A stretch of DNA of 64,000 nt. Source: an uncultured Oscillospiraceae bacterium. Its GTDB lineage: Bacteria > Bacillota > Clostridia > Oscillospirales > Oscillospiraceae. The position numbers and the translations under genes are program-made. Below are positions 55,971-63,026 of this stretch, one piece after another; the stretch's first letter is position 1, and each line of letters opens with the position of its first letter. The notes beneath the pieces are model-generated. The model was not told the DNA's origin. It saw only the letters and a list, made by a program, of their open reading frames with translations, and made no database searches. Location of the stretch: positions 1 through 64,000 of the forward strand of contig CANQOA010000001.1 in NCBI GenBank assembly GCA_947625355.1, given 5' to 3'.

Positions 55971-56127
55971 GGCGAAACGCCGTAAGGCGTTGCGCCGAGC
56001 CGCTTTGCGGCTCAGCAAACAGCGGCGCTGTTTGCCAGACACTCATTGCAATGAACATTGCGCAAATGATCCTTGGATCATTTGCTGCCAAACGGATCGT
56101 TTGGCGGCGAAAACTTTCGTTTTCGCC
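55971..56127. repeat. Array of seven contiguous hairpins
   Basis: Seven inverted repeats are packed almost without gaps: 55971-55996 (11-nt arms, one mismatch), 55997-56013 (7), 56015-56035 (9), 56048-56061 (6), 56062-56085 (11, TT loop), 56087-56105 (8) and 56106-56127 (9). All but the first are perfect. A small frame crosses the block, but its composition is explained by the palindromes. The activase gene starts 57 bp after the array. Confidence 0.93.
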
Positions 56128-56183
56128 TTGCGATGATCATTATGAAATATCGGGAACACAAACGACGGAAGTGAGGCGGCCCT

Positions 56184-56951
56184 ATGACCTACATCGGCAT
56201 CGACATCGGCTCCACCTGCTCCAAGACGGCGGTCCTGAACGGCAGCGGGGAGACGGAGGGCCTCTTCGTGCTGCCCACGGGCTGGAGCAGCCTGCAGGCG
56301 CTGGAGGACATCCGCCGGGAGCTGGCCCGCCGGGGCGTGGACCCGGACGGAGCGGAATGCGTCTCCACCGGCTATGGGCGCAAGGCGGTGCCCTTCGCCG
56401 CCCGGCAGGTGACGGAGATCAGCTGCCACGCCAAGGGGGCTGCGGCGCTGTTCTCCCATGGGGCGATCAACGTCATCGACGTGGGCGGCCAGGACACCAA
56501 GGTCATCAGCTGCCGGGACGGCCGGGTGGAGGAGTTCTATATGAACGACAAGTGCTCCGCCGGCACGGGCAAGTTCGTGGAGATCATGGCCAACCGCCTG
56601 AACGTGCCCATCGGGCAGTTGGACGAGCTGGCCCGGGCGCGGACCGAGCAGATCGAGATCAGCTCCCTCTGCACCGTGTTCGCCGAGACGGAGATCGTGG
56701 CCCTGGCGGGGCAGGGCGTGGCCCGGGAGAACATCGCCTGGGGCGTGCTCAACTCCGTGGCGAAGAAGGTGGCCCAGGAATACGCCAAGCTGCGGGACGC
56801 CGACCGGCCGGTCTATCTGACCGGCGGGCTGTGCCAGTGCGGGTATTTCCTGGAGCTGGTTGGCCAGCGGCTGGGCCGGCCCATAGGCTCCGTACCGGAG
56901 GCGCGTTATGCCGGCGCCCTGGGCGCCGCCCTTCTGGCGGCGGGAAGATGA
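56184..56951 (+). CDS. ATP-dependent activase of the 2-hydroxyacyl-CoA dehydratase/DCCP family
   Basis: A 255-residue ASKHA ATPase (HgdC/BadF-type). MTYIGIDIGSTCSKTAV and NVIDVGGQDTKVI form the nucleotide site; Cys124 in NDKCSAGTGKF and Cys163 in SSLCTVFAETE bind the 4Fe-4S cluster shared by the dimer. Such activases inject one very low-potential electron per ATP hydrolysis into a partner iron-sulfur enzyme. The likely partner is the convergent gene at 56994-58145. The gene is monocistronic and ends in a terminator shared with its partner. Confidence 0.93.
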   Translation: MTYIGIDIGSTCSKTAVLNGSGETEGLFVLPTGWSSLQALEDIRRELARRGVDPDGAECVSTGYGRKAVPFAARQVTEISCHAKGAAALFSHGAINVIDVGGQDTKVISCRDGRVEEFYMNDKCSAGTGKFVEIMANRLNVPIGQLDELARARTEQIEISSLCTVFAETEIVALAGQGVARENIAWGVLNSVAKKVAQEYAKLRDADRPVYLTGGLCQCGYFLELVGQRLGRPIGSVPEARYAGALGAALLAAGR

Positions 56952-56984
56952 AAAGAAGGACCTGCTCTGGCAGGTCCTTCTTTT
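56952..56984. terminator. Bidirectional terminator between activase and reductase genes
   Basis: A 14- to 15-bp perfect stem (around AAGGACCTGC/GCAGGTCCTT, TCTG loop) with A and T tracts on opposite sides, between convergent genes. Confidence 0.93.
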
Positions 56985-56993
56985 TTCGATGGA

Positions 56994-58145
56994 TCACAGC
57001 ATCTCCAAAAACGCGGCGATGCGGGTGTTGAGCTGGCCCACGTCGATCTGGGAATAATCCGTCTCCACATTGATATAGGGCAGGTGCTTCTGGTCGCTGA
57101 CGAAGCGGTGGATGGCCAGAGACTCCACATTATAAGTATGGCATGCCTGGAGGGTCATCTCCAGCACCCCGTCCACCCGGAACTCGTCGATGAGCCGGCC
57201 CAGCAGCTCCAGCCGGTTGGGGTTGGGCGTCATCACCGAGCAGCCGATGGCCAGATACCGGCGGGCGATGGCGTCGTAGATGTCCGGCGCGTCCTCGTCG
57301 ATCATCTGATCGTGGGCCTTAGCGCCGGTGCAGTTCTCGTAGGCCACTACCACGCCGCCGTTGTCCTCCACCGCCCGGATGACCTTCTCCGTGGCGCCGC
57401 CGATGGGGCAGCCGGTGATGAGGATGCGGGGCCGCCTGGTCAGCATCTTCCCCTGGGCGTACTCTGCCTCGATCTTGGCCGTCAGCGCGTCCACCTCCGG
57501 GGGGATGGCGGACTTGTCGAACTTAAAGCCGCTGCCATAGAGGACCTTGAAGAGGTCATATCCCGTGATGGGGGCGGGGTCATGGCGCATCACGTCATAC
57601 AGCCCCTTCAGCGACCGGCGCACCCGGTTGTTGAGCTTCACCGCCTCCCGCACGGCCTCGTCGGTGATGGTAACGCCGAATTTTTGCTCCAGATACGCCT
57701 TGAGGCGCAGGATCTCGCCCTTCCACAGGGTCAGCGCCGCCTCGCTCTGGGAGTTGGGCAGTTCCATGACGAACACGTCCTTGAACTGGGCCATGTACTC
57801 GTACATCTTTTTCTTTCCGTCGCAGGTGGTCTCGCCCACCACCACGTCCGAAAAGTAGAAATACGGGCATTTATCGGTCTTGGCGAAGCCATAGCTGGAT
57901 TTGATGAGCGGGCAGAGGTTCTTGGGCAGGTCCTTTTCCGCCTCCAGGATGGTCTCGTCTGAGGTGGAGCACAGGCTCACCGTGGCCGCGCCCATGGCCA
58001 TGGCGATCTCCTGGGGGAAATAGGTGCAGTAGGAGCCCACCACGGGCACGCCTCTGTCCTTCAGCTCCTTCACGGCCAGGAAGGAATTCTTCCGCTGCTC
58101 GGCAAAGTCCTCAAAGACCTCCGGCAGGTCCTTTACGATCTCCAT
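56994..58145 (-). CDS. Double-cubane-cluster-type reductase (HgdB/YjiM family)
   Basis: A 383-residue member of the HgdB superfamily, single-gene form. Cysteines are at 40 (GSYCTYFP), 59, 78 (NLCPLIKSSYGFA), 93 (DKCPYF) and 108 in the first half, and 246 (ITGCPIGG), 272 (YENCTG), 302 (IGCSVMTP) and 335 (LQACHTYNVES) in the second. This pattern, the size and the lack of a second dehydratase subunit fit the double-cubane-cluster proteins, which reduce small substrates using a cognate activase. A 2-hydroxyacyl-CoA dehydratase subunit is the alternative. It is the last gene of the permease-ATPase-binding protein run, which is unusual and suggests the imported compound is its substrate. Confidence 0.85.
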   Translation of the reverse strand: MEIVKDLPEVFEDFAEQRKNSFLAVKELKDRGVPVVGSYCTYFPQEIAMAMGAATVSLCSTSDETILEAEKDLPKNLCPLIKSSYGFAKTDKCPYFYFSDVVVGETTCDGKKKMYEYMAQFKDVFVMELPNSQSEAALTLWKGEILRLKAYLEQKFGVTITDEAVREAVKLNNRVRRSLKGLYDVMRHDPAPITGYDLFKVLYGSGFKFDKSAIPPEVDALTAKIEAEYAQGKMLTRRPRILITGCPIGGATEKVIRAVEDNGGVVVAYENCTGAKAHDQMIDEDAPDIYDAIARRYLAIGCSVMTPNPNRLELLGRLIDEFRVDGVLEMTLQACHTYNVESLAIHRFVSDQKHLPYINVETDYSQIDVGQLNTRIAAFLEML

Positions 58146-58169
58146 TTTGTCTCTCCTTTCCGGACGTCG

Positions 58170-58201
58170 GCAAAGAGACAGGCGGATGCCTGCCTCTTTG
58201 C
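58170..58201 (-). terminator. Intercistronic hairpin after the binding-protein gene
   Basis: A 14-bp stem with one mismatch (58170-58183 with 58188-58201), no T run. It probably stabilises the binding-protein mRNA or attenuates reductase expression rather than terminating fully. Confidence 0.65.
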
Positions 58202-58221
58202 GCGATCAGAGGTATCGTTGT

Positions 58222-59334
58222 TTACAGGACCGGCGTCCAGGCCAGCGCCATGACCTCGTCCACGTCGTCCATCTTCTCGATCAGACCCAGGCGGATGTAC
58301 TTCTCCACGACCTTATGCAGGCTCTCGCCGGTGAACTCCTGATCCAGACCGAACTGCAGGGCGTTGAACACCTTCACGTTCATCTCATAGTTGTCGCCCA
58401 GCAGCTCCAGCTCCATCAGCTTCTTCGCGGCGTCCTCGATGTTGTTGCGCATCCAGCTGTGGGCCTTCTGCACAGCCTGGACGATCTTCTTGGAGATGGT
58501 GGGGTTCTCCTGCACGAAGGTGCGGTTCATGGCGATGATGCAGCAGTTATCGCCGGCGAAATCCTCGTCCAGCAGGGAGCGGATGCACTTGAGCTTGCCC
58601 TCCTGCACCATCTTGTAGGCGAAGGTGTCGCTGAGCAGGGCGGCGGAGATCTCGCCGCGCTCCATGGCGGCCACGCAGGCGTCGGTGGACACCGGGGTCA
58701 GCTCCACGTCGTTGCGGGGGTCGATGCCGTCGGCGTCCAGCAGCAGGGCGGTGATGTTGTAGTCGGACGCGCCGATGCCGTTGGGCACGGAGATGGCGGT
58801 GCCCTTCAGGTCCTCGGTGGTGTTATAGTCGCTGTCGGCCAGCACATAAATGGATTTGCAGCCGATGTGGGCGCCGCCCACGAAGGTCAGGTCCACGCCG
58901 TTGGTGATGGGCACCAGCATGGTGGCGATGTGGCCCACGGCGACGGTGGCCTGTCGGGTGCCGAGCGCCTCGGTATAGGAGCTGCCCTTCACGCCCTCCG
59001 CCTCCAGGCCGGCCTCCGCAAAGTAGCCCAGCTCATCGGCGATGGTCGGGCCGGAGTTGCAGGCGTCCATCATGTAGTACAGCACGGGCTCGCCATAGGC
59101 GGGCTCTTCCTTCATGGCGGCCAGCTCCTCCTCGGTGGGGGTCAGGTCCAGATCGCTCAGATCGATGGCGCGGCCCTCCATGTCGATGGGGACGAACATG
59201 GCCTCCCAGTTGCCGGTAGTGGAAGCCTCATAGGAATCCAGGTGCTCCTCCTCGGCGTCGGCAAGGGCGCAGGGGGCCATGACCAGGATCATGACCAGCG
59301 CCAGGACCAGGGACAGGTACTTCTTCATGTTCAT
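58222..59334 (-). CDS. Secreted substrate-binding protein linked to the reductase
   Basis: A 370-residue NMT1/SsuA-like binding protein: Sec signal cleaved near ALADA (about residue 26), an acidic linker of some 50 residues, then the binding fold (PVLYYMMDACNSGPTIADEL, DLKGTAISVPNGIGASDYNI, ISAALLSDTFAYKMV). There is no lipobox; the MAPC cysteine context does not fit one. The DACNSGP segment places a cysteine in the likely ligand pocket. It sits between the ATPase and reductase genes. Confidence 0.86.
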   Translation of the reverse strand: MNMKKYLSLVLALVMILVMAPCALADAEEEHLDSYEASTTGNWEAMFVPIDMEGRAIDLSDLDLTPTEEELAAMKEEPAYGEPVLYYMMDACNSGPTIADELGYFAEAGLEAEGVKGSSYTEALGTRQATVAVGHIATMLVPITNGVDLTFVGGAHIGCKSIYVLADSDYNTTEDLKGTAISVPNGIGASDYNITALLLDADGIDPRNDVELTPVSTDACVAAMERGEISAALLSDTFAYKMVQEGKLKCIRSLLDEDFAGDNCCIIAMNRTFVQENPTISKKIVQAVQKAHSWMRNNIEDAAKKLMELELLGDNYEMNVKVFNALQFGLDQEFTGESLHKVVEKYIRLGLIEKMDDVDEVMALAWTPVL

Positions 59335-59395
59335 GCTCTTTTCTCCTTCATATAATATTCCAAGACCGGCGGAGCCGGTATGATGGACAGTTGGG

Positions 59396-60172
59396 TCAGC
59401 TCTTGTGCCCGGCGTAATGCAGCTGATTGAGGATATCGACCCGGTAGGCCAAAAACGCGGCGGAGGAGCGGTCCCGGGGGTAGTCGATGTGGATGGGCAC
59501 GTCCGCGATCACCCGGCCGGGGTTGGCCTCCATCACGATGACGCGGGTGCCCATATAGATGGCCTCGTCCACGTCGTGGGTGACCATGATGGCCAGCTGC
59601 CACCGCTCCCGCCATATTTTCAGGATCTCGTCCTGCATGTTCATGCGGGTGAAGGCGTCCAGCGCGCCCAGAGGCTCGTCCGGCAGCAGGATGTCTGGCT
59701 CGTCGATGATGGAGCGGGCCAGCGCCACCCGCTGGGCCATGCCGCCGGACAGCTGGCCGGGGTAGTCCTTGCGGAACGCCTCCAGGCCGATGACCTGGAG
59801 CATCCGCTCCACCTTCTCCTCATTGCCCTTGAGCTTGTGCTGCATCCGCAGGCTGAAAGAGATGTTCTTCTCCACGGTCAGCCATGGGAACAGCGTGGGC
59901 TTCTGGAACACCATGCCCCGCTGGGGGGACGGCGCCGTCACCGGCTTTCCGTCCACGGTGACCGTGCCAGTGGTGGGCAGGATCAGCCCCGCGATCAGCC
60001 GGAGGATGGTAGATTTGCCGCAGCCGGAGGGGCCCACCAGGCTGATGAACTCGCCGCTGGCCATGGTCAGGTCCACGGTGTTCAGGGCATGGGTGACCTC
60101 GTCGCTCTCCACCTTCGCGAATACTTTGGACACCCCATCCATGCGGAGGGTGACATGCTTCTGCTCGCCCAT
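59396..60172 (-). CDS. ABC importer ATPase (second SsuB-type)
   Basis: A 258-residue ATPase with Walker A GPSGCGKST, signature LSGGMAQR, Walker B ILLPDEPLGALD (Pro where Met or Leu is usual) and MVTHDVDEA. Its ATG overlaps the permease stop by one base (TAATG). With the permease and binding protein it makes a full importer, separate from the set at 25 kb. Confidence 0.94.
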   Translation of the reverse strand: MGEQKHVTLRMDGVSKVFAKVESDEVTHALNTVDLTMASGEFISLVGPSGCGKSTILRLIAGLILPTTGTVTVDGKPVTAPSPQRGMVFQKPTLFPWLTVEKNISFSLRMQHKLKGNEEKVERMLQVIGLEAFRKDYPGQLSGGMAQRVALARSIIDEPDILLPDEPLGALDAFTRMNMQDEILKIWRERWQLAIMVTHDVDEAIYMGTRVIVMEANPGRVIADVPIHIDYPRDRSSAAFLAYRVDILNQLHYAGHKS

Positions 60173-61242
60173 TATGCCGTCCTTCCGATCTGCCAGCGCA
60201 AAAGGCGCCGCTTGAGAAGCTCCACGCCCCTGGTGACCGCGGTGAAGATGAAGCAGATCACGAACAGGGCCGCGAACATCTTGTCATAGCTGGCCCAGGA
60301 TTTGGCCCAGGTCATATACCAGCCCAGGCCCGCCTTCACGCCCATCATCTCCGCCACCATGATGGCCACGCAGGCCGAGCTCATGGCCTGGGTGCAGCCC
60401 TGGAGGATGGAGGGCATGGCGTGGGGGATGGCCACCTGGAAGATCAGCTGCCGCTCGCTGGCGCCCAGGGTCCGGGCCGCCTCGAAATAGTCCTTGTCCA
60501 CGTTGGAGATGCCGGTCATGGAGGCCACCGTCACCGCGAACCAGGAGCCCAGCGCGATGACGAACACCGCCCCGGCGAACAGGGACGACACCACCACCAT
60601 GATGATGGGGATCCATGTGGCCGTGGGGATGGGGCCCAGGAATTTGATGATGGGATCGATCCAATAATGGGCCCGCTCCCAGTAGCCGCAGGTGATGCCG
60701 GTGACCAGGCCCACGGCCACGCCGATGAAGTAGCCCAAAAACAGCAGCCGCAGCGTGTGCAGCGTACATTCGATAAGGTACGCCCGGTCGGACCAGGCGA
60801 TGTTCAGGATCGAGTTCATGCAGGGGACGAACGGCTGGGTCAGCACGCCGGTCTTCAACGTCAGATAGTCATAAAACGCCAGCAGCAGGAACAGCGCCGC
60901 ATACAGCGGCGCCTTGTAGCGGACCTTCTCATAGACCGCCCGCTCCCCCCGCGGCAGCTTTCCGGCCGCGAACACGCAGTAGCACAGATAGGCGGCGGCG
61001 AGCACCAGCAGGAAGCCCACGTAGGTGTTCGGCTGGGGATTCATGCTGTTGTCCGGCACCAGCAGATACTCCAGCAAAGCAATGCCGCCACAGAAAAGCG
61101 GCAGCAGAACGATCACGACATCCAGCAGCTTTTGTGCGCCGGTCTTTTCCTTTTTTTCCAGATCCTGCAGTTGCTGCCGGGTCAAAGCCCCCAGCTGCCC
61201 GCCGGATCCGCCCGCCGGATACCGCTCCCCTTGTGTCGGCAT
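60172..61242 (-). CDS. ABC importer permease with extended N-terminus
   Basis: A 356-residue permease. The C-terminal 240 residues are a standard SsuC-type domain with the EAA loop AARTLGASERQLIFQVAIPHA. The first 110 residues add a coiled stretch (LTRQQLQDLEKKEKTG) and about two extra helices (LLDVVIVLLPLFCGGIALL, FLLVLAAAYLCYCVFAA), an uncommon extension. I chose ATG 61242 over 61281 because GGAGAGAGG precedes it. It is the first gene of the importer-reductase operon. Confidence 0.88.
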   Translation of the reverse strand: MPTQGERYPAGGSGGQLGALTRQQLQDLEKKEKTGAQKLLDVVIVLLPLFCGGIALLEYLLVPDNSMNPQPNTYVGFLLVLAAAYLCYCVFAAGKLPRGERAVYEKVRYKAPLYAALFLLLAFYDYLTLKTGVLTQPFVPCMNSILNIAWSDRAYLIECTLHTLRLLFLGYFIGVAVGLVTGITCGYWERAHYWIDPIIKFLGPIPTATWIPIIMVVVSSLFAGAVFVIALGSWFAVTVASMTGISNVDKDYFEAARTLGASERQLIFQVAIPHAMPSILQGCTQAMSSACVAIMVAEMMGVKAGLGWYMTWAKSWASYDKMFAALFVICFIFTAVTRGVELLKRRLLRWQIGRTA

Positions 61243-61294: not shown

Positions 61295-61323
61295 AGTATA
61301 CGGCGCGGCCAAAATCATGTCAA
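61295..61323 (-). promoter_or_regulatory. Promoter of the importer-reductase operon
   Basis: Minus strand TTGACA (61318-61323), 17-nt spacer, TATACT (61295-61300). Confidence 0.88.
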
Positions 61324-61630: not shown

Positions 61631-61805
61631 ACGCCGCCTCTCCTATCGTGAGCGGCTCAATTCGGCGAGTTGGCCAAATTCCTTTCGGCGTGTTGGCCAG
61701 CCATGACCGAATTTTCTCGACTTTCTCGAAAATACGTTCTCGCGGCGCTCTTGAAATAAGTTCCATGATATGATTGACCAAACTTATCTTTTGGAGGGAC
61801 CATTC

Positions 61806-63026
61806 ATGGCATCTATCGTCAAGCGTGGCAAGAGCTACAGCGTTGTCTACAGCACATACATCAATGGCGCCCATAAGCAGAAATGGGAGACCTACCACTC
61901 CGAAGCCGAAGCGCTACGGCGTAAAGAAGTCGTCGAGTCCTGGCTGCGGGTCCGACAGAGGAAAACGACCGGCAAAATCGAAACGGTGGAGCAGCTCGTC
62001 TGGGCCTATGTCCGGCTTTACGGAAAGAGCCGATGGTCGCTGTCCATGTACGACTCCAGCCTGGGTTTGATCAACAACTACATTATCCCCTATTTCGGCA
62101 GCATCCGGCTGCACGAGCTGTCACCCAGGATGGTGGCATGGATGTACGGGGACCTTTTGGGACAGCAGCGCTATAACGGCAAATTCCATAAGCATCCGGG
62201 AGAGCGGTTATCGCCCCACACGTTGAAAAGCGTACACAAACTCCTACACAGCGTCTTTGAACAGGCCGTACTTTGGGAATATGTGCCCAGCAATCCCTTC
62301 CAGCGGGCGATCCTCCCCAAAATAAAATCTGCTCCGCAGCCATTTCTGACGCCGGAGCAGGTCCACATATTGCTGGCCAACTGCAAGGACTTGCAGTTGA
62401 AATTGGCCCTCGAACTGGCATTTGCCTGTACGCTGCGAGAGGGGGAATTGCTTGCTCTGACGTGGGACGACGTTGATTGGGATGAGCACACCCTCCGTGT
62501 GAACAAAACGCTCACACGGGCCAGCCGTGCCGCCATAACGGCCCTGGAGCAGCGGGACACCCTGTATATCTTCCCGTCTGTCCGCAAGAATGCCAGCACC
62601 GCTCTGGTGCTGAAAGCCCCAAAGACTGATGCCAGCAACCGGATCGTCTACCTGCCGCCCACCGTGATGGGGTCGCTCCTTTTGTGGAAGGGATCGTGCG
62701 GAACGCCGCCAGAAGAAGCGCCGAACTTGATCTTCACCTGCGACCGGGGACTCCCATTGCAGAACAGCTTTCTTTTGGAGCAGTTCCACGCGTTGCTAAC
62801 CTCCTGCAGTCTGCCGAAGGTCACCTTCCACAGTCTGCGGCATAGCAGCATCACCTATAAGCTCATCCTCACCCACGGCAACATCAAGGCGGTGCAGGGC
62901 GATTCCGGGCACGCCCAGGCAGATATGATCACCGAGGTCTACGGGCACATTCTCGACCAGCGGCGCCGCGCCAGTGCGGAGCTGTTTGAGGCGGATTTCT
63001 TTAAGGGGCAATTCCCAGTCAACTAA
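61806..63026 (+). CDS. Tyrosine recombinase/integrase
   Basis: A 406-residue site-specific integrase: an N-terminal AP2-like/SAM-like arm-binding region (IVKRGKSYSVVYSTY), a core-binding domain, and a catalytic domain with Arg in CTLREGELLALTW, His and Arg in FHSLRHSSITYK, and the Tyr of EVYGHI. The frame starts at 61770, but ATG 61806 follows TTGGAGGG by 7 nt. It has lower GC than its neighbours. No excisionase is seen beside it. It belongs to an element extending right of the window. Confidence 0.93.
   Translation: MASIVKRGKSYSVVYSTYINGAHKQKWETYHSEAEALRRKEVVESWLRVRQRKTTGKIETVEQLVWAYVRLYGKSRWSLSMYDSSLGLINNYIIPYFGSIRLHELSPRMVAWMYGDLLGQQRYNGKFHKHPGERLSPHTLKSVHKLLHSVFEQAVLWEYVPSNPFQRAILPKIKSAPQPFLTPEQVHILLANCKDLQLKLALELAFACTLREGELLALTWDDVDWDEHTLRVNKTLTRASRAAITALEQRDTLYIFPSVRKNASTALVLKAPKTDASNRIVYLPPTVMGSLLLWKGSCGTPPEEAPNLIFTCDRGLPLQNSFLLEQFHALLTSCSLPKVTFHSLRHSSITYKLILTHGNIKAVQGDSGHAQADMITEVYGHILDQRRRASAELFEADFFKGQFPVN

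Follow-up and report, generated by a model that had tools for sequence, protein, structure and literature searches.

In vitro, the sole double-cubane-cluster protein (DCCP) tested so far reportedly acts as a reductase of acetylene, azide, and hydrazine. What DCCPs do biologically was stated to be unknown in 2025, in a paper that lists the six [8Fe-9S] cluster-ligating cysteines of BzdN (PMC11971306). A connection with selenium has already been proposed. Specifically, genes for HGD-D proteins and their activases were found as STRING neighbors of YedF, DUF3343, and a selenium LysR (Lin et al. 2015; PMC5322559), and DCCP and DCCPR were marked as putative selenium genes in a 2023 preprint (PMC10418091). 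Regarding uptake, a specific transporter with high affinity for selenium had yet to be identified in any prokaryote according to reviews from 2022 and 2026 (PMC9312934, PMC13188914). Here, we describe a locus that may bring the two subjects together, in a 64,000-nucleotide stretch of DNA from an uncultured Oscillospiraceae bacterium, hereafter the window. Our literature search, which did not reach the key Haft and Jeoung/Dobbek papers, found no paper tying its importer to DCCP or to selenium. It is likely that the importer link is new, while the link between DCCP and selenium is not.

The locus consists of five genes, all of whose open reading frames are borne out at the following coordinates. 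On the minus strand, the permease (61242-60172; 356 amino acids from ATG 61242), ATPase (60172-59396; 258 amino acids), and extracytoplasmic substrate-binding protein (59334-58222; 370 amino acids) of an ABC importer form one co-directional run with the gene for an HGD-D protein, a reductase of the DCCP/YjiM type (58145-56994; 383 amino acids). The permease and ATPase genes share 1 nt, and gaps of 61 nt and 76 nt separate the binding protein from the ATPase and the reductase, respectively. The gene for the ATP-driven activase, of the DCCP reductase/YjiL type (56184-56951, plus strand; 255 amino acids), is convergent with the reductase gene. Between the two, at 56952..56993, a bidirectional intrinsic terminator is predicted, with a 15-pair hairpin (z = -5.2 and -5.0 on the two strands) and U runs on each strand. 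A preliminary description of this DNA had reported the gene run, its overlap and short gaps, nine cysteines in the reductase, the convergent activase, and the shared terminator, all of which we verified from the sequence. It had also placed the permease start correctly at 61242: an in-frame TTG lies further 5', and relatives L099 and L103 carry stops there, so the ATG is taken as the start.

Among the features that go beyond that description are two putative control elements. A strong stem-loop without a U-run (z = -4.3) occupies the spacer between binding protein and reductase (58146..58221, minus strand), and a sigma-70-like promoter-like site, TTGACA-17-TATACT, sits 53 nt 5' of the permease (61295..61323, minus strand), where it agrees with the consensus at 11 of 12 positions as a pattern match only. 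The spacer stem-loop and the terminator hairpin are both found in two congeners, L020 and L021, the latter with altered sequence. Because they persist despite this sequence change, we regard both hairpins as real elements, and the spacer stem-loop may allow the binding protein to be produced at a higher level than the reductase. The contigs of these two congeners, which are rabbit-gut MAGs (L104, L106), both break at binding-protein codon 138, at the end of L020 and the start of L021. Since both bins derive from one sample, the shared break is probably an assembly artifact of a common stretch.

Two described systems resemble the reductase and its activase. With DCCP/DCCP-R of Carboxydothermus hydrogenoformans (6ENO, 7YZM), the window protein shares 38% identity and membership in the curated double-cubane family (NF040772; 530.6 bits, cutoff 350). 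Its predicted structure matches DCCP (7yzm/6eno) at Z 48, compared with about 40 for BzdN and HadC and 30 for the catalytic subunits. Alignment with BzdN C36/73/100/263/293/327 predicts C40, C78, C108, C272, C302, and C335 as the [8Fe-9S] ligands, and all six are present in 18 of 18 relatives. Taken together, the sequence and the structural model identify the HGD-D protein as a double-cubane-cluster protein, as had been proposed. In contrast to the Carboxydothermus pair, whose activase belongs to the same family, the window gene follows the genes of an ABC importer on the same strand, the activase is convergent rather than co-directional, and the neighborhood of the family points to selenium. 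The second system is YjiM-YjiL-YtiA of Escherichia coli, where yjiM-yjiL is followed by the DUF3343 Se/S-carrier gene ytiA. YjiM and the window DCCP share about 61% identity, but the E. coli set has no importer.

A role as a 2-hydroxyacyl-CoA dehydratase or benzoyl-CoA reductase subunit was considered and rejected. HadC and BzdN belong to the same superfamily, yet the window protein falls far below the dehydratase and reductase models (NF052456, 77.6 bits against a cutoff of 700; TIGR03190, 58.9 against 453.8; TIGR02260, 37.3 against 486.6; TIGR02263, 29.3 against 421.2), which does not place it with true dehydratase subunits, and no second subunit gene lies beside it at the locus. In some relatives, there is a second HGD-D paralog, about 34% identical and on the DCCPCh side of the tree. 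It stands beside the first DCCP in L122 and L174, and paralogs of the same type stand beside the importer, within selenium-gene clusters, in L091 and L109.

The activase scored 214 bits against TIGR00241 (cutoff 125) and matched HgdC (1hux) and DCCP-R (7yyl_E) in the PDB. By these matches it is a true member of the BadF/BcrA/HgdC-type family, in line with its original assignment. Maximum-likelihood trees place the two partners differently. The window DCCP groups among YjiM-like lineages, outside a 23-row clade (94/99) that contains most importer-linked DCCPs. The window activase, by contrast, groups with the activases of that clade, and a branch with 100/100 support separates it from YjiL and from the activases paired with most YjiM-like DCCPs. 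The closest DCCP outside the genus (79% identical; L174) shows the same mixed combination. Because the tree positions are discordant and the convergent orientation is unusual, the trees suggest that the pair has been re-assembled and is a mosaic.

The importer is less easily matched to a described family. Its permease (PF00528, 80.5 bits), ATPase (PF00005, 117 bits), and NMT1/SsuA-type binding protein (PF09084, 62 bits) form a stable cassette across relatives. In transporter type and binding-protein fold (Z 21-25), the cassette is like SsuABC, TauABC, NrtABCD, and CmpABCD, but identity is about 14-16%, and all curated SsuA, TauA, NrtB, and Sao cutoffs are missed. An AlphaFold2 model of the binding protein (mean pLDDT 93) was closest to SsuA (2x26) and CmpA (2i4b) at Z 25; superposition on 2x26 (Z 25.0, rmsd 2.9 A over 278 residues) indicates a type II SsuA-like fold. 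The earlier label of an SsuABC-type importer therefore holds for the fold but not for the family. Assignment as an SsuABC aliphatic sulfonate importer was rejected, with 79.9 bits against a cutoff of 163.5 for TIGR01728 and permease (SsuC/TauC) models far below cutoff. Models of the Sec-assisted organometallic (SAO) importer, another selenium-linked system, ranked first among NCBIfam models for the ATPase (SaoA, NF040729; 248 bits, cutoff 360) and permease (SaoP, NF040733; 113.8 bits, cutoff 295) and second for the binding protein (SaoX, NF040735; 62.5 bits, cutoff 300). However, all three scores are far below cutoff, the window importer proteins have no Sec codon, and this assignment was rejected as well. 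Likewise, no Sec codons were found when we looked for them in the importer and DCCP relatives.

Five cysteines of the mature binding protein (C92, C159, C220, C264, and C265) also distinguish it from these described importers, being kept in 36 to 38 of 38 relatives. Such cysteines are unusual among proteins of this fold, and a soft, thiol-seeking ligand would suit them. The lipobox cysteine C22, in the N-terminal segment (59334-59268), occurs in 37 of 38 relatives; anchoring of the window protein is uncertain because its motif, VMAPC, is atypical. Several importer relatives carry tandem or fused double or triple binding proteins (L059:7559-9787, L096, L101, L107, L108, L111, and L127), which suggests ligand diversification. 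A search of a plasmid collection with the binding protein was uninformative, giving only 27-31% matches among the matches listed.

Our results reveal a recurrent association between the importer and DCCP. We scanned 84,980 named genomes with a profile and obtained 46 importer loci, 44 of them outside the genus of the window. A DCCP and/or activase gene lies within 8 kb of the importer in 14 of these 44 loci, in many orders and orientations, compared with a chance expectation of about 0.5 loci (~1%). Furthermore, a DCCP is encoded in 40 of the 42 importer genomes searched. Of 394 genomes from the order, 10 have the importer and 17 have DCCP, with all 10 among the 17 (p ~9e-16; 3e-9 when collapsed by genus); these and the p values below are hypergeometric, and phylogeny is corrected for only by collapsing to genus and so not fully. 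On the trees, the linkage label needs at least seven changes for DCCP and at least six for the activase. The linkage was therefore, on this reconstruction, gained or lost repeatedly, as functional coupling predicts. Within the genus, this DCCP is found in only 3 of 35 genomes, always in the identical arrangement, where the link is indistinguishable from chance (3/3 in 16/35, p 0.09).

The view that the importer is functionally tied to the reductase is thus upheld by differently ordered adjacency that recurs across genomes and by near-obligate co-occurrence. The preliminary description had gone further and suggested an uptake-and-reduce pathway dedicated to a single compound. This exceeds the evidence, because importer and DCCP-activase are separate blocks in most genomes. 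About two thirds of importer loci have no DCCP within 8 kb, and the two lie apart in the other nine importer genomes of the order. Given that they are often unlinked and that DCCP is the commoner (17 versus 10 genomes), importer and DCCP need not share a molecule.

The setting in which the importer recurs is one of selenium handling, a feature that the preliminary description had not raised. Curated models typed its recurrent neighbors as YedF, the Se/S carrier Se_S_carrier (PF11823; DUF3343), a TIGR01977 desulfurase (second-best model, selenocysteine lyase), and a selenium LysR. YedF exceeded its cutoff near the importer in L091 and L126, as did the selenium LysR (NF040786) in L086, L087, L088, and L089; LysR genes near the importer in L118 and L119 were considered as well, but the curated model was unsupportive for L118 and neither was counted. 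Relatives with selenium genes inside the gene cluster include L086-L089, L091, L097, L121, L122, and L126. The window itself contains no linked selenium gene. Its genome (G000) encodes SelD with an in-frame TGA (Sec-SelD; 387.6 bits), YedF (219 bits), and, as named from sequence, SelA and GrdC/D-like proteins. Within the order, SelD passes its cutoff in 63 of 394 genomes, compared with 10 of 10 importer genomes and 17 of 17 DCCP genomes (p = 6e-9 and 4e-15; 1e-5 and 2e-8 by genus), and selD has an in-frame TGA in all 10 importer genomes. In the set of 42 importer genomes, SelD is present in 39 and YedF in 38. These patterns of gene content make it probable, and well supported, that importer and DCCP are both associated with selenium metabolism.

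How the two might act together is a further step, for which we infer both the substrate and the order of events. In our proposal, which we hold with roughly even confidence, the locus is a candidate module for acquiring selenium, in which a small chalcogen compound is imported, reduced at the double cubane, and used to feed SelD. The ABC importer would capture a small selenium compound, or possibly a sulfur/selenium compound, and bring it into the cell. Using ATP, the activase would drive electrons of very low potential into the double-cubane protein, which would then reduce the imported compound, either free or bound to a carrier, to the level of selenide. YedF, the DUF3343 carrier, and SelD would pass this selenium on for the synthesis of selenophosphate and selenocysteine and hence of selenoproteins, glycine reductase among them. 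It is plausible, and about as likely as not, that DCCP has the imported compound as its own substrate.

The chief rival, possible but only about half as probable as our proposal, keeps both systems within selenium metabolism and assigns them different molecules. The importer would supply a selenium source, and DCCP-activase would be a general low-potential reductase that acts on per-selenide or persulfide carriers, namely YedF and DUF3343, or that serves to recycle selenium. This would fit a DCCP-activase block that is usually separate and more widespread than the importer. It would also fit cases in which that block keeps company with selenium genes and no importer: in two isolates (L172 and L173), DCCP-activase-YedF adjoins selD; in L174, which holds the nearest DCCP outside the genus, that DCCP has as neighbors an activase, a desulfurase, a Se/S carrier, and a further HGD-D protein; and E. 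coli has yjiML-ytiA. Conversely, the importer is found with selenium genes and without DCCP in L086 and L097. Direct coupling is favored, however, by the repeated independent adjacency and by the operon-like run in the window. The families of YedF, DUF3343, and class V desulfurases can act in sulfur handling too. Next in rank, and unlikely, is a sulfur pathway, in which an organosulfur (sulfonate-like) compound is imported and DCCP/activase with YedF/desulfurase frees its sulfur. The SsuA/NrtA/TauA fold of the binding protein agrees with this reading, as do the families of its neighbors, YedF being TusA-type. Moreover, two of the three importer genomes without a SelD match (G433 and G461) have YedF, carrier, and desulfurase beside the importer; the SelD-less genomes may be incomplete MAGs or carry sulfur-only systems. 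Yet a sulfur pathway sits poorly with the SelD counts (39 of 42 importer genomes, and 10 of 10 within the order, where 63 of 394 genomes have it) and with the selenium-specific LysR that adjoins four importers.

A still less probable reading has the importer bring in a Stickland substrate (glycine, betaine, or creatine-like) for selenium-dependent reductases, which would make the selenium link indirect. The GrdC/D-like genes named in the window's genome are compatible with this, and a GrdB-family match occurs in 33 of 42 importer genomes (27 over cutoff). The reading is weakened by the other nine, eight of which have SelD, and by the identity of the importer's neighbors, which are selenium-handling genes rather than grd genes. 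Finally, importer and reductase could be unrelated and neighbors by chance. Upstream of the importer, at a distance of 0.5 kb, a phage-type tyrosine integrase (61770-63026) may mark a mobile or insertion-prone region, and the two systems are separate in most genomes; nevertheless, adjacency in 14 of 44 independent loci against the ~1% expected, and co-occurrence in 40 of 42 genomes, contradict this explanation and make it highly improbable.

A selenium-acquisition module would make two questions testable together, the role of DCCP and the uptake of selenium by bacteria. The importer is a concrete candidate for a selenium transporter, and DCCP gains a linked candidate role. More tentatively, and with the odds somewhat against it, this could be the first dedicated high-affinity importer of a selenium compound in bacteria and the first physiological role for a DCCP, the ATP-driven reduction of an imported compound to selenide. 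Gut anaerobes of this kind may compete with their host for selenium.

Two further observations concern the surroundings of the importer and of the window locus. In about seven loci, an FtsX/MacB-type ABC exporter and a DUF4418 membrane protein lie divergent or adjacent to the importer (L089:3365-5625, L098:809-4348, L090, L092, L093, L094, and L095). A related exporter accompanies a DUF4418 protein in L099, which L111 and L116 resemble by clustering. In the window, several perfect palindromes occur in a run at 55980-56130, between a radical SAM gene and the activase, and are possibly repeat elements or a structured leader.
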